Shown in pieces: positions 3,553 to 9,438 of a stretch of DNA of 64,000 nt. A program made the translations under genes and the position numbers. The stretch is from an uncultured Litoreibacter sp. (lineage in GTDB: Bacteria > Pseudomonadota > Alphaproteobacteria > Rhodobacterales > Rhodobacteraceae), in the NCBI GenBank assembly GCA_947494435.1, contig CANLUY010000002.1:372001-436000 (forward strand), given 5' to 3'. Below the pieces are notes generated by a model that ran no database searches, was not told the origin of the DNA, and saw only the letters and a program-made list of their open reading frames with translations. Every line of letters starts with the position of its first letter. The stretch's first letter is position 1.

Positions 3553-6396
3553 ATGAGTTTCACACCCACCGACTATCTGCCCTATGATTTCGCCAACCGC
3601 CGCCATATCGGCCCGTCCCCTCAGGAAATGGCGGAGATGTTGCAGGTCGTCGGTGCCAAATCCCTCGATGCCTTGATCGACGACACGGTGCCCAAGATGA
3701 TCCGGCAGAAGCAGCCACTCGATTTCGGCAAGGCCAAGTCTGAGCGTGAATTGCTGCACCACATGAAGATCACTGCCGAGAAGAACAAAGTGCTGACCTC
3801 GCTCATTGGGCAGGGCTATCACGGCACAGTCACACCGCCCGCGATCCAGCGCAATATCCTTGAAAATCCCGCATGGTATACGGCCTATACGCCTTATCAG
3901 CCTGAGATTTCGCAAGGCCGTCTTGAGGCGTTGTTGAACTTCCAAACGATGGTCTCCGACCTTACCGGACTTGAGATCGCCAATGCCTCCTTGCTGGATG
4001 AAGCCACAGCCTGTGCCGAAGCGATGACTATGGCGCAGCGTGTCGGCAAGTCCAAAGCTCAAGGCTTCTTCATCGACGAGAATTGCCACCCGCAAAACAT
4101 CGCCGTCATGAAAACTCGCGCGGCCCCTCTGGGGATCGAGATCACCGTGGGCAACCCCGACGACTTGGACGCAAGCCAAGTGTTCGGCGCGATCTTCCAG
4201 TATCCCGGCACGCACGGCCATATCAGCGATTTCACGGATGTCATCGCCAAGCTGCATGAACAGAAAGCCATCGGCATTATCTCGGCGGACCCGCTGTCGC
4301 TGACGCTTCTGAAAGAACCCGGCGCGATGGGCGCGGATATCGCCGTCGGCACCACGCAGCGCTTCGGCGTGCCTGTGGGGTATGGCGGCCCGCACGCCGC
4401 CTATATGGCAACGAAAGCCAACTACGCACGTAACATGCCGGGTCGCATCGTGGGCGTCTCCATCGACAGCCATGGTAACCGCGCCTACCGGCTGTCCTTG
4501 CAAACGCGCGAGCAGCATATCCGTCGTGAGAAAGCCACGTCGAATGTCTGCACCGCACAAGCCTTGCTTGCAGTGATGGCCGGCTTCTATGCAGTATTCC
4601 ATGGGCCTGAAGGTCTCAAAGCGATTGCCCAGCGAATTCATCGCAAAACCGGTCGCCTTGCCGAAGGGCTAAAACAAGCAGGCTTCGATGTCCGTCCCGC
4701 GAGCTATTTCGACACAATCACCGTAGATGTCGGCCCGCTACAAGCTGCCGTAATGAAGTCTGCGGTCGACGAGGGCATAAACCTGCGCAAAGTGGGCGAC
4801 ACTAAGCTTGGCATCACATTGGACGAGCGCACCCGTCCCGAGACCATTGAAGCCGTCTGGCGCGCCTTTGGTATCACCCGCGAAGACAAGGACTATACTC
4901 CGCATTACCACATGCCGGAGAAGCTGATACGCACATCCGATTTCCTAACTCACCCCGTTTTCCACATGAACCGGGCGGAGACGGAGATGATGCGCTACAT
5001 GCGTCGCCTCGCGGATCGTGACCTTGCGCTGGATCGCGCCATGATCCCGCTGGGCTCTTGCACGATGAAGCTGAATTCCGCGGCTGAGATGATGCCCGTG
5101 ACATGGGATGAATTCTCGCTCCTGCACCCGTTCGTGCCGAAAGACCAAGCGGCGGGGTATACGGAAATGATCGAGGATCTCTCCGCCAAACTGTGCGATG
5201 TCACCGGCTATGACGCGATCTCCATGCAGCCAAACTCCGGAGCGCAGGGCGAATATGCGGGGCTTTTGACGATTGCGGCCTATCACCGGGCGAAAGGCCA
5301 AGGCCATCGCAACATCTGCCTGATCCCCATGAGCGCGCATGGCACCAATCCGGCCTCCGCGCAAATGGTGGGCTGGAAGGTTGTACCCGTTAAATCGGCT
5401 GAGAATGGCGATATCGACCTTGAGGATTTCAAAGCCAAAGCAACCGAGCATGCCGAGAGCCTTGCGGGCTGCATGATCACATATCCCTCCACCCATGGCG
5501 TGTTTGAAGAGACCGTGATCGAAGTATGCAAGATCACCCATGAAAATGGCGGGCAGGTCTATATTGACGGCGCCAACATGAACGCGATGGTAGGTCTGTC
5601 GCGCCCCGGCGATCTTGGCGGTGATGTCAGCCATCTGAACCTGCACAAGACCTTCTGCATCCCGCATGGTGGCGGTGGCCCTGGCATGGGACCCATTGGC
5701 GTCAAAGCACATCTGACAGCACACCTACCAGGTGATCCGAACTCGGGCGAGGGCGCAGTTAGTGCTGCACCCTACGGGTCCCCGTCGCTTTTGCCGATCT
5801 CGTGGGCCTATTGCCTGATGATGGGCGGAGAAGGGCTGACGCAAGCCACACGCGTTGCGATCCTAAACGCTAACTACATTGCGAAGCGCCTCGAGGGCGC
5901 GTTCGACGTGCTCTATAAAGGACCGTCAGGTCGCGTCGCGCATGAGTGCATTATCGACACGCGGCCTTTCAACGAGATCATGCATATCACTGTCGATGAC
6001 ATTGCCAAGCGGCTCAGCGATTGTGGCTTCCACGCGCCGACCATGTCATGGCCTGTCGCAGGCACGTTGATGGTGGAGCCGACGGAGTCGGAAACGAAAG
6101 CTGAATTGGACCGGTTTTGTGACGCCATGCTAGGCATCCGCGAAGAAATTCGCGCGATTGAGCGCGGCGATATGGACCCAGAAAACAACCCATTGAAAAA
6201 TGCACCGCACACGATGGAAGACCTCGTCAAAGAGTGGGATCGTCCCTATACGCGCGAGACCGGGTGTTTTCCTGCAGGTGCGTTTCGGGTCGACAAATAC
6301 TGGCCACCAGTGAACCGCGTGGACAATGTCTGGGGGGATCGAAACTTGACCTGCACCTGTCCGCCGATGAGCGATTACGCCGAGGCCGCAGAGTAA
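3553..6396 (+). CDS. gcvP: Glycine dehydrogenase (decarboxylating), P protein
   Basis: A 947-residue single-chain P protein that decarboxylates glycine and loads the aminomethyl group on GcvH. Both halves of the fused alpha/beta form are present: an N-terminal half with [11 protein letters not shown] and a C-terminal half with the pyridoxal-phosphate segment [20 protein letters not shown], in which Lys-699 should bind PLP. Length equals the usual one-gene P protein. It is the last gene of the gcv transcript. No clear terminator follows before the puc promoter, although GCCGCA/TGCGGC arms can pair loosely about ten bases after the stop. Confidence 0.97.
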
Positions 6397-6514
6397 AGCC
6401 GCATTAGATCCTTACGAAAACGAGAAAGTGCGGCAGGTGGAAACGCATTGCCGCGCCTTACTTTTGTGCGTTTTGAAAGCGTCTCCCTACCTATAAATGG
6501 GTAACGCTCAGAAA

Positions 6515-6558
6515 TGTAACAAAAATTGGACAGTTGTGTGTGTCATTAATAAATTACA
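6515..6558. promoter_or_regulatory. Tandem PpsR/CrtJ-type binding sites upstream of pucB
   Basis: Two copies of TGT-N12-ACA occur at 6515-6532 and 6541-6558, separated by eight bases. TGTN12ACA is the established recognition sequence of the redox/light repressor PpsR (CrtJ) in purple bacteria, and tandem sites eight bases apart are the classical arrangement at Rhodobacter promoters such as bchC and puc. The pair ends 123 bases before the pucB start, in the 285-base gap after gcvP. I infer aerobic and light repression of the antenna operon. The regulator gene is not in the window. Confidence 0.8.
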
Positions 6559-6681
6559 TATTTGATATGTGGTGCTGCTTGCCGGGACTATCCCTTTTTG
6601 CAGCCCATATTTCTCGTTGGTAGGGGGTCAGACTGGACCATTTCTCTTCCAGCACAACAGCAAGGATACGGAGGGACTTTT

Positions 6682-6840
6682 ATGTCTTCAAATGATCCTG
6701 ACAAGGTTTGGCCAACTGGTCTGAACCTGCGTGAAGCCGAAGAGCTTCACAGCTACCTCATCGACGGCACGCGCGTCTTTGGTGGGATTGCACTCCTAGC
6801 TCACATTCTCGTCGCTATTTCGACGCCGTGGCTAGGGTAG
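6682..6840 (+). CDS. pucB: Light-harvesting 2 (B800-850-type) complex beta chain
   Basis: A 52-residue single-helix antenna apoprotein. The segment [20 protein letters not shown], followed by [13 protein letters not shown], is the LH2 beta signature. His-41 should be the ligand of the B850-type bacteriochlorophyll, and His-23 lies at the membrane interface as in other beta chains. The ATG at 6682 has a strong GGAGGG site; an in-frame start further upstream would add about 40 unrelated residues. It is followed after 12 bases by pucA. Confidence 0.96.
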
Positions 6841-6852
6841 GGAGGTTACACA

Positions 6853-7170
6853 ATGAACAACGCTAAAATGTGGCTCGTCGTGAAACCAACCGTCGGTGTT
6901 CCATTGTTCCTGTCAGGCGTGGCTGTCGGGTCTTTTGCGGTCCACGTGGCCGTATTGTCGAACACCACTTGGGTATCGGACTTCCTTTCCGGTCAAGAGC
7001 TTGGTTCAGGGGACGCATCCGCCTCGTTGATCATCGACGAGACAGACGCCAACACGGCCAAGGCATCCTACGCCCTTCCGAAAACGGATGGCGCACAGGA
7101 AATTCTGGTGACTATGCCAGACGGAACCCAAAGACGGGCTGTCCTTCAGCCTCCGGGAGAATCTCTCTAG
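6853..7170 (+). CDS. pucA: Light-harvesting 2 complex alpha chain with C-terminal extension
   Basis: Residues 1-47 form a normal LH2 alpha chain: MNNAKMWLVVKPTVGVP, a membrane helix with the bacteriochlorophyll-ligating His-31, and TTW at 38-40. Positions 44 and 45, which hold Tyr and Trp/Tyr in B800-850 proteins, are Phe and Leu here, as in the B800-820 (LH3) alpha chain of Rhodoblastus acidophilus 7050. Usual alpha chains end near residue 54-60, but this one continues to 105. The added periplasmic tail is acidic and includes a KTDGAQEILVTMPDGTQRR segment. The ribosome-binding site GGAGG is good. Confidence 0.93.
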   Translation: MNNAKMWLVVKPTVGVPLFLSGVAVGSFAVHVAVLSNTTWVSDFLSGQELGSGDASASLIIDETDANTAKASYALPKTDGAQEILVTMPDGTQRRAVLQPPGESL

Positions 7171-7222
7171 CCGAGAGGACCTCCAAGAACTCGCCGATCC
7201 CAATCAGGGGCCGGTTCGTCGG

Positions 7223-7241
7223 GTGCCGTTTTATGCGGCAC
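7223..7241 (+). repeat. Intercistronic hairpin between pucA and pucC
   Basis: GTGCCG-N7-CGGCAC forms a six-base-pair stem in the 150-base gap after pucA. There is no T tract, so it is not a standard terminator. In Rhodobacter puc and puf operons such hairpins protect the antenna mRNA segment and set a high antenna-to-downstream ratio; I infer the same here. Confidence 0.45.
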
Positions 7242-7320
7242 AGCTAGCCAAGGGACGGCTCCCGACAAACATTTCAGGACGGCTCGCAATCGCGATGTCC
7301 GTACCATGAAGGCGCATACG

Positions 7321-8748
7321 ATGTTGAACTATCGAAAATTTGCCATTGGCAAACTGGCGCAAATTGGTCCCCGTTATCTGCCCTTTGCAGACGTGGCCTC
7401 TGAAGATGTGCCGCTCTCGCGCCTTCTTCGCCTCTCTCTGTTTCAAGTCACGGTCGGTATGGCTTTGGTGCTGCTCGTCGGCACGCTGAACCGCGTGATG
7501 ATTGTGGAGCTGGACGTTCCTGCCGCCCTTGTGGGCATCATGATTTCCCTGCCTCTGCTCTTCGCCCCGTTTCGCACACTGATCGGGTTCAAGTCCGATA
7601 CATTCTCGTCGGCCTTCGGGTGGCGGCGCGTGCCGTTCATCTGGAAAGGCACCATGCTGCAGTTTGGCGGCTTCGCGATCATGCCATTCGCCTTGCTGGT
7701 TCTGTCGGGCTATGGCGACGCCGTCGATGCGCCGCGTTGGATCGGCTACGGCTCTGCCGCTCTGGCGTTTCTGCTGGTGGGCGCAGGTGTGCACATGGTG
7801 CAGACCGTGGGGCTGGCACTGGCCACCGATCTGGTGCCCGAGGAAGACCAACCCAATGTGGTGGGACTGATGTATGTGATGCTGTTAGTCGGAATGATCG
7901 TCAGCGCGTTCATCTTCGGTGCCCTGCTCGAAAACTACACGCCCGGCCGCCTGATCCAATGTATCCAAGGGGCTGCGGTCGTGACCATCGTGCTCAACGC
8001 TGCAGCGATGTGGAAGCAAGAGGGACGCAACCGCGAACGCGCAATGGCGAGCCTTGAAAACAGACCAAAACCGCAATTTGCCGATAGCTGGCAGCAATTT
8101 ATTGCGGGGCAAGGCGCGATGCGCCTGCTTGTGGTGATTGCATTCGGCACGCTGGGCTTTGGCATGGCGGATGTCTTGCTCGAACCTTACGGCGGACAGG
8201 TTCTGAACATGTCTGTCGCGCAAACAACGAAATTGACCGCTGTGTTGGCGGCAGGAAGCCTTGTTGGCTTCGCACTTGCCTCCCGGGTGCTGAGTCGGGG
8301 GGCAAGCCCTGTGAACATGTCTTTCTATGGGGCGCTTGTCGGTCTGCCTGCTTTCGCGGCAATTATTGCATCTGCGCAAGTTGATGCCCCGATGCTTTTT
8401 GTCGGCGCGACGCTGGCGGCTGGTTTTGGGGCGGGGCTGTTTGGCCATGGCACACTGACAGCCACGATGCGCAACGCGCCTAAAGATCAAATTGGTTTGA
8501 GCCTTGGTGCCTGGGGCGCTGTGCAAGCCACGTCGGCGGGTATTGGCGTCGCGATGGGCGGGATCATTCGTGATATCGTCGTATCACTTCCCGGTGCTGC
8601 GACTTTTGCACCCGAAACCGCGTACACCCCCGTTTTCGTGCTTGAGATCATCTGCCTGCTCGCAGCTTTGATCGCACTTTATCCGCTCATGAGAAAAATA
8701 ACTCGAACTCGACCACTTCAAACCTATCTTCAATCGAAACGAACATAG
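7321..8748 (+). CDS. pucC: PucC, BCD-family MFS-type LH2 assembly protein
   Basis: About 475 residues with some twelve membrane segments, belonging to the PucC/LhaA/Bch2 family of light-harvesting assembly factors. Hallmarks are YLPFADVASEDVPLSRLLRL, the LNRVMIVEL segment after helix 1 and FGWRRVPFIWKG between helices 2 and 3. The protein is needed for LH2 formation and is thought to handle bacteriochlorophyll or apoprotein insertion in the cytoplasmic membrane. ATG at 7321 has AAGG at suitable spacing; an in-frame ATG at 7306 would add five residues. It sits in the expected pucBAC order. Confidence 0.94.
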   Translation: MLNYRKFAIGKLAQIGPRYLPFADVASEDVPLSRLLRLSLFQVTVGMALVLLVGTLNRVMIVELDVPAALVGIMISLPLLFAPFRTLIGFKSDTFSSAFGWRRVPFIWKGTMLQFGGFAIMPFALLVLSGYGDAVDAPRWIGYGSAALAFLLVGAGVHMVQTVGLALATDLVPEEDQPNVVGLMYVMLLVGMIVSAFIFGALLENYTPGRLIQCIQGAAVVTIVLNAAAMWKQEGRNRERAMASLENRPKPQFADSWQQFIAGQGAMRLLVVIAFGTLGFGMADVLLEPYGGQVLNMSVAQTTKLTAVLAAGSLVGFALASRVLSRGASPVNMSFYGALVGLPAFAAIIASAQVDAPMLFVGATLAAGFGAGLFGHGTLTATMRNAPKDQIGLSLGAWGAVQATSAGIGVAMGGIIRDIVVSLPGAATFAPETAYTPVFVLEIICLLAALIALYPLMRKITRTRPLQTYLQSKRT

Positions 8749-8805: not shown

Positions 8806-9438
8806 ATGACAACAGTGATCACACGGCTTTACGCCGACGCAAAAACAGCGAATGCCGCAATGTCCGATCTGCAAGCCGCGGGACTTCGCGACGATATGGT
8901 CGATATGATCGGTGCAGGGTCCGATGCGGCAGATGAAATGGCCGCCGCGCGGGTTCCGGATGATGCAGCTGCGAAATATGCTGAAAAGCTGAAGGGCACC
9001 GCGAGCCTAGTCGTGGCACGCGTCCCACTCATGCCGCCTGGTGCTGCGATGGCCGCGATGGCGATTGTGGACGGCCACGACTCAGTGAATGCCGGCGTTG
9101 CAAACCAGAATGCTTATATCCGAGAGCAGACCGATTACTCGCTGTTTAAGCCGAGACTGAAGCATGGCCACATCATTGGTCATGATCTGACGCCCGGCTA
9201 CAGTGAGCGCTACGGCCTTGTTACCGAAGCCTTTGGCCTGCGCCACCTCAAGCCGCACCGAACGAAACGGTCGGCGATTGAAGGCGGCGGTTTCAAGTCT
9301 GGTCTGTTCTGGCCGATGCCGCTGCTGAAAAAGAAGGAAGGCTCTAACTCGGCGATCTCCGGTGGCGCGCATATGTCAAAATTCTTCTGGCCAATGCCGC
9401 TCATCTCACGGCGTCAGGCCTCGGCAAAAGTCAGCTAG
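8806..9438 (+). CDS. Unrecognised protein with two C-terminal FWPMPL repeats, end of the puc operon
   Basis: A 210-residue protein of unknown function. Residues 1-75 look like a small alpha/beta domain, beginning TTVITRLYADAKTANAAMSD and reminiscent of the DUF1269/YflT stress-protein fold. A helical Ala/Met-rich segment follows at 77-90. The C-terminus has two roughly 26-residue repeats, each with a GG and then FWPMPL (168-173 and 194-199) and a basic tail, LKKK or ISRR. No signal peptide is evident. It lies 57 bases after pucC with a strong GGAGGA site and ends in the operon terminator, so it is probably co-transcribed with LH2 genes. Confidence 0.75.
   Translation: MTTVITRLYADAKTANAAMSDLQAAGLRDDMVDMIGAGSDAADEMAAARVPDDAAAKYAEKLKGTASLVVARVPLMPPGAAMAAMAIVDGHDSVNAGVANQNAYIREQTDYSLFKPRLKHGHIIGHDLTPGYSERYGLVTEAFGLRHLKPHRTKRSAIEGGGFKSGLFWPMPLLKKKEGSNSAISGGAHMSKFFWPMPLISRRQASAKVS

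Follow-up and report, generated by a model that had tools for sequence, protein, structure and literature searches.

Among nine LH2 complexes compared in the literature (PMC9618040 section 8, Table 1), two hydrogen bonds to the C3-acetyl groups accompany a band at ~850 nm, one bond a band at ~825 nm and none a band at ~800 nm. The LH3 complex (B800-820) of Rbl. acidophilus 7050 (1IJD) has Phe44/Leu45 in its alpha chain and retains a single C3-acetyl bond, made by Tyr41 to the alpha pigment (PMC9618040 Table 1; PMC6988754). Replacement of Tyr41 by Val removes this last bond in PucD (PMC6988754), and the PucD-LH2 of Rps. palustris, with no bonds, absorbs at 803–804 nm (PMC9618040; PMC5783997). 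The latter complex (7ZE3, B800-803) is made in low light in a deletion strain (PMC9618040, PMC5783997). Its deposited alpha chain reads WVAKFMNG, i.e., V41/F44/M45, in agreement with PMC5783997, while the PNAS text prints Met-44/Phe-45.

The F44L45 motif has already been named for single-band (LH4-like) aerobic phototrophs (PMC12654162 section 11, with reference to a 2011 paper); in that section and in Table 2, the peripheral band of Dinoroseobacter shibae is placed at 804 nm and that of Roseobacter litoralis at 806 nm, and R. denitrificans is listed with a single ~800-nm band (PMC12654162). Since the motif is in print, the antenna described here, encoded within a 64-kb stretch of the genome of an uncultured Litoreibacter sp. 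(the window), would be a further case of the known ~805-nm type.

The puc operon of Litoreibacter and its alpha chain

The features of the locus are as follows (positions in the window).

6515..6532, + strand: box 1, TGT-N12-ACA, upstream of pucB (pattern search)
6541..6558, + strand: box 2, TGT-N12-ACA, upstream of pucB (pattern search)
6682..6840, + strand: pucB, LH2 beta chain, 52 aa (PF00556, 38.8 bits, cut-off 23)
6853..7170, + strand: pucA, LH2 alpha chain, 105 aa (ATG open reading frame, translation, alignment, PF00556)
6973..6975, + strand: Val41 codon, at the position of Tyr41, the one donor left in LH3 (sequence)
6982..6987, + strand: Phe44 and Leu45 codons (sequence)
6994..7167, + strand: PucA tail, residues 48–105, with a predicted beta-meander at 72–98 and the motif MPDGT at 88–92 (conservation; AlphaFold2 at low to middling confidence)
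7306..8748, + strand: pucC, LH2 assembly factor family, 480 aa (PF03209, 499.8 bits)
8806..9438, + strand: ORF-X, 210 aa, directly after pucC (conserved, without family match)

The PucA translation opens MNNAKMWLVVKPTVGVPLFLSGVAVGSFAVHVAVLSNTTWVSDFLSGQEL... and the chain is recognized as an LH2 alpha chain by its PF00556 match (49.5 bits, cut-off 23), His31, the ungapped alignment of residues 1–47 with the LH2 alpha chains of Rba. sphaeroides (7pbw) and Rps. palustris (7ze3, 7ze8, 7zcu), and its position with pucB before and pucC after it. Counted from Met1, it carries S27, H31, T38, T39, W40, V41, F44, and L45. The first-pass annotation had put Phe44/Leu45 in the LH2 numbering through a gap-free alignment with His31 and Thr38/Thr39/Trp40, and had considered the donors Tyr44 and Trp/Tyr45 lost; translation of 6853–7170 and comparison with the solved chains bear this out. 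It mentioned neither Val41, which matters for the subtype, nor the tail that follows Gly47. PucB ends in TPWLG, as does the Rba. sphaeroides-type sequence L062.

Boxes 1 and 2 lie 26 bp apart and are of a pattern which we take to be of the PpsR/CrtJ type, PpsR presumably being the regulator of such sites. Single boxes mean nothing, as the window contains nine against 13.6 expected. Of 80 upstream regions, that of the window among them, 61 have at least two boxes, against 0.3% of letter-shuffled regions, and boxes 25 or 26 bp apart were counted 59 times in this set.

The source genome (3.89 Mb, 12 contigs, 99.97% complete) gave four matches to the PF00556 profile, two in the puc operon and two on contig C6, where the pair (8057–8320) adjoins two PF00124 (reaction-centre) matches at 6156–7822 and is thus taken for pufBA, leaving one LH2. 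The possibility, raised in the first-pass annotation, of a second puc operon supplying the alpha chain was checked by this whole-genome PF00556 search, and none was found. Contig C6, which carries the puf genes, is 49.8 kb long (G000, L066–L068), and its first 20 kb partly match photosynthesis-gene plasmids of Sulfitobacter, Roseobacter and others at 72–79% identity.

The closest named match to PucA (77%) is from an uncultured Litoreibacter, and the same chain is encoded in G407, which belongs to the genus of the source genome (L069, L150). PucA shares V41/F44/L45 with three phototrophs of published spectra, D. shibae DFL 12 (G035, L011), R. denitrificans OCh 114 (G414, L164) and R. litoralis Och 149 (G417, L169). 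The LH2 of R. denitrificans, which absorbs at 806 nm, resembles that of Litoreibacter also in S27, in a long tail with PDGT and in the order pucB-pucA-pucC (L164/L174); the two PucA chains are ~68% identical over the match but differ at the ends of their tails, and of the two antennae that of R. denitrificans is the one with a published spectrum. D. shibae LH2 (804 nm) has the tail as well as the triad, and residues 11–21 of its alpha chain read PPAVGVPVFLG instead of KPTVGVPLFLS. The PucD-LH2 of Rps. palustris likewise has no donor at 41/44/45 (V/F/M), but differs in its 59-residue chain, in its gamma subunit and in being one of several puc pairs.

Among 394 genomes of the family a search with the whole of PucA matched 56, the source genome included; one of these matches (G189, E 7e-4, in a frame of 1354 aa) is probably spurious. 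In the 80 named loci, which are the best matches to an alignment led by Litoreibacter PucA so that the share of V41/F44/L45 is biased upward, the triads are V41/F44/L45 (74), Y41/Y44/L45 (4), Y41/Y44/M45 (1), and V41/Y44/L45 (1). A search across the class with the helix part matched 12 of 385 genomes, again with the source genome; besides that of Litoreibacter, 13 alpha chains were recovered with a query that itself has Phe44, 11 of them with Phe44 and three with Phe44/Leu45. Phe44 is not rare. One sequence from another family of the class (L209, G530) combines V41/F44/L45 with a tail containing TMPDGRT, which suggests a possible transfer between families.

Predicted colour and competing readings

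By analogy with solved LH2s, from which the ligand roles are assumed, PucA and PucB would form an ordinary LH2 ring in which the strongly coupled BChl a pair of B850 type would have alpha His31 and a beta His as ligands, and the B800 pigment would be held by alpha Met1 and a beta Arg. Val41/Phe44/Leu45 would leave no alpha side chain at these positions able to hydrogen-bond the C3-acetyls of the ring pigments, so that their site energies would rise and the ring band would merge with B800 into one band at ~803–806 nm. As Val41 stands in place of Tyr41, PucA matches the PucD pattern and not LH3, and the expected antenna is blue-shifted and of the known 804–806-nm kind instead of B800-820. The chain has no donor at 41, 44 or 45 (V/F/L), it shows the F44L45 motif by which LH4-like antennae have been described (PMC12654162 section 11), and by gene content its complex is the sole peripheral antenna. 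We are therefore confident, if short of certain, that the only puc operon of this Litoreibacter-like roseobacter encodes an LH4-like/PucD-like sole peripheral antenna with one band at ~803–806 nm; both this band position and the ring structure are what we infer from the genes.

The expectation of the first-pass annotation that the complex should absorb well below 850 nm stands, the same triad being present in three species with bands at ~800–806 nm. Its label "B800-820-like" has to be given up, as LH3 retains the Tyr41 bond and PucA has the Val41 of PucD. The likeness it drew to R. denitrificans holds for the triad and fails in calling the type unusual: V41/F44/L45 is the predominant triad of the relatives retrieved, and section 11 of PMC12654162 describes the motif.

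An engineered antenna complicates the assignment. The Tyr44Phe/Tyr45Leu mutant of Rba. sphaeroides reaches 826 nm only, the shift of 24 nm being given for 77 K (PMC9618040; residues from PMC6988754); its background has Ser27, and the Rba. sphaeroides chain (7pbw) has Leu41, also no donor. Hence F44/L45 alone does not explain 806 nm, which weakens the earlier idea that residues 44 and 45 set the colour by themselves, and another ~20 nm must have a different source, for which Val41, Asp43 or acetyl torsion are candidates.

The 826-nm band of this mutant, together with the Phe44/Leu45 that PucA has in common with LH3 of Rbl. acidophilus (PMC6988754, PMC9897067), could be taken for an LH3-like B800-820 antenna absorbing at ~820 nm. 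This is improbable, and the LH3-type assignment was dropped, since the Tyr41 bond kept in LH3 is replaced by Val41 in PucA and three species with V41/F44/L45 have published bands at ~800–806 nm; in addition, LH3 is the low-light counterpart to an 850-nm LH2 whose genes lie elsewhere in the genome, but this genome has one puc operon and no second one to replace in low light. A less unlikely reading, still doubtful in our judgment, is that the ring band is set mainly outside residues 41/44/45, for instance by Asp43 or the environment of the C13 keto group, so that the wavelength would be unreadable from the triad. That the mutant halts where it does (PMC9618040) is in keeping with such control, as is Asp43, invariant in all 48 sequences of alignment A2, which took 47 of the 80 named loci; in the seven relatives with Lys37/Tyr41/Tyr44 (see below) position 43 is Asp in three and Asn in four. 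A proposal of this kind, involving the C13 carbonyl and a serine, was reportedly made in a 2011 paper on R. denitrificans. Yet Ser27, which bonds the C13 keto group in Rba. sphaeroides, can be changed to Ala there without effect on B850 (PMC9618040), and it is present in 160 of the 162 PucA sequences compared (repeats included), among them those of 850-type, so that it is no explanation by itself; moreover, Table 1 of PMC9618040 orders its nine complexes by C3-acetyl bonds.

It is very improbable that the operon is silent or decaying and that no LH2 is made. A pucA match was found in only seven of 21 genomes of the genus, and the trait may thus be lost or gained often; in one relative, a genome from the ALOHA metagenome (L148), PucA has Trp40 changed to Arg and the PucC matches are weak and split, possibly a decaying puc operon. 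In Litoreibacter, on the other side, all four genes are open, paired boxes of regulatory type lie upstream, and the helix residues are strongly conserved among relatives.

The PucA tail and ORF-X

Litoreibacter PucA extends 58 residues beyond Gly47, and in its closest relatives this tail contains a conserved DG...A motif. A tail of this kind is present in all 80 named loci (chains of 94–119 aa), an outcome favoured by the use of the whole protein as query; in the wider set, 10 of 162 chains have 51–73 aa, nine of other types and L050 (V41/F44/L45, 66 aa). G91 and A96 are invariant in A2, where D90 is found in 47 of 48 sequences, and they are also invariant in the 74 tails of alignment A3, which took 73 of the 80 named loci. 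Nonsynonymous divergence (pN) rises from the helix (0.10) through the motif (0.33) and linker (0.45) to the end of the chain (0.56); only this ranking was used because synonymous sites are saturated (mean pS 0.67–0.72).

AlphaFold2 places strands at 72–76, 82–87 and 93–98, and a model of the tail alone has three strands in nearly the same places (mean pLDDT of the two models, 67.0 and 61.8). The C-terminus of LH2 alpha chains is on the periplasmic side, and consequently the modelled tail is likely a small periplasmic beta-meander. A role in assembly may be guessed at by analogy with the Rubrivivax extension, as excerpted from PMC5069747. No report of the tail was found in passages of PMC5069747, PMC6988754 and PMC9897067 from an open-licence literature search.

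Pfam gave no match in the Litoreibacter tail. When the weak tail models were compared with known folds, the best scores (VIA-align Z 2.6, Foldseek E 0.94) named no fold; given the weakness of these models this is no evidence of a new one. UipA, presumably a PepSY protein, ranked fifth in the fold search with an E of 1.4, which is not significant. Long PucA chains with Ala/Pro/Glu-rich repeats and a PepSY_2-like end are encoded at L056:2001-2873 (+) and L060:1197-2174 (-), the PepSY_2 match being over the cut-off in the former (E 5.8e-6) and under it in the latter (E 1.2e-4); L063 has a similar C-terminus. A PepSY origin of the tail, considered on account of the L056 and L060 ends, found no support when the 74 tails were compared by hhalign with three PepSY-type PucA ends (probability 0.2, E 0.33, 20 columns).

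ORF-X follows pucC on the same strand in 64 of the 76 loci with enough sequence (window included) and is absent there in the other 12. It was found in 40 of 394 family genomes, 39 of these being among the 56 with pucA (hypergeometric 3e-39, ignoring kinship). Searches of Pfam, NCBIfam and PDB sequences with the protein yielded nothing within the limits set, and a search of the open-licence literature found no report of a further puc gene. ORF-X is a candidate for an undescribed gene of the puc operon.

Residues 37, 41 and 44 in relatives

In seven relatives (L044, L046, L104, L121, L136, L142, and L147) Asn37/Val41/Phe44 is replaced by Lys37/Tyr41/Tyr44. Lys37 is present in all seven Tyr41/Tyr44 sequences, and of the 74 named V41/F44/L45 sequences 73 have Asn there and one has Ser. 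The PucA of L104 is the same as that of L022; those of L136 and L142 are one residue apart and may represent one event. Tateyamaria pelophila DSM 17270 (L084) has Tyr44 alone and keeps Val41; its predicted band would lie at about 820–825 nm. Of 117 sequences with a usable PucC, repeats removed, 101 are V41/F44/L45, six Y41/Y44/L45, one Y41/Y44/M45, one V41/Y44/L45 and eight of other types.

On a PucC tree of these 117 (L048, a broken or truncated case, forms a long branch) the switched state needs seven changes, of which well-supported branches force at least six, and it is spread over the tree as widely as shuffled labels are. AU tests rejected a single clade of the seven on PucC (77 sequences, p-AU 1.4e-6) and on PucB plus PucA without residues 37–46 (76 sequences, p 5e-5); both relied on quick trees and on a group defined by residues, but were chosen after the first PucC tree had been seen. 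The tree of PucB plus PucA without 37–46, a short alignment, needs six changes, only two forced by well-supported branches. Repeated PucA and PucC below 300 aa were left out of the trees, and the sets of 77 and 76 were further chosen for breadth.

In DNA encoding residues 1–36 the switched sequences are 0.76–0.88 identical to their PucC neighbours versus 0.74–0.79 to other Tyr41/Tyr44 sequences, a difference clear for L136, L142 and L046 and hardly so for L104 and L121. Over codons 37–46 they are nearer to other Tyr41/Tyr44 sequences (0.59–0.79) than to PucC neighbours (0.40–0.55), as shared residues alone would make them. Recent gene conversion of the block from one donor was rejected: at positions with the same residue, codons are identical in 61 of 115 cases in the block versus 263 of 588 in residues 1–36 and 47, which gives no clear indication of a tract shared recently. 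The block may have arisen by convergence or by an old exchange of a short tract.

Each of the eight genomes concerned (the seven and that of T. pelophila) has four PF00556 matches (completeness is given for three of the eight; G068 is 76% complete), as expected of one puc pair plus one puf pair, so that the seven seem to have no LH2 other than the switched form. In these relatives Tyr41 would be the donor to the alpha pigment and Tyr44 that to the beta pigment. Such a pair is absent from all nine complexes of PMC9618040 Table 1, and the bond rule applied to the sequences of the seven predicts a red shift. The passages of PMC5069747, PMC6988754 and PMC9897067 named above yielded no report of a Y41/Y44 pair in LH2, and the open-licence literature search found none of bacteriochlorophyll in Thetidibacter halocola, whose strain KMU-90 is among the Tyr41/Tyr44 relatives. 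The chances seem to us evenly divided that the LH2 alpha chain is a two-state colour switch between N37/V41/F44 (no bonds, ~805 nm) and K37/Y41/Y44, changed jointly while the rest of the operon goes with that of its neighbours, and returning the sole LH2 towards 830–850 nm.

Worth following up are ORF-X, the conserved tail and the possible switch described here. Close relatives that share the operon and tail and differ in having Tyr41/Tyr44 constitute a natural mutant series, and spectra of three or four of them would tell whether C3-acetyl bonds alone set the colour of LH2 or whether another factor supplies the ~20 nm separating the engineered 826-nm mutant from the natural 804–806-nm complexes.
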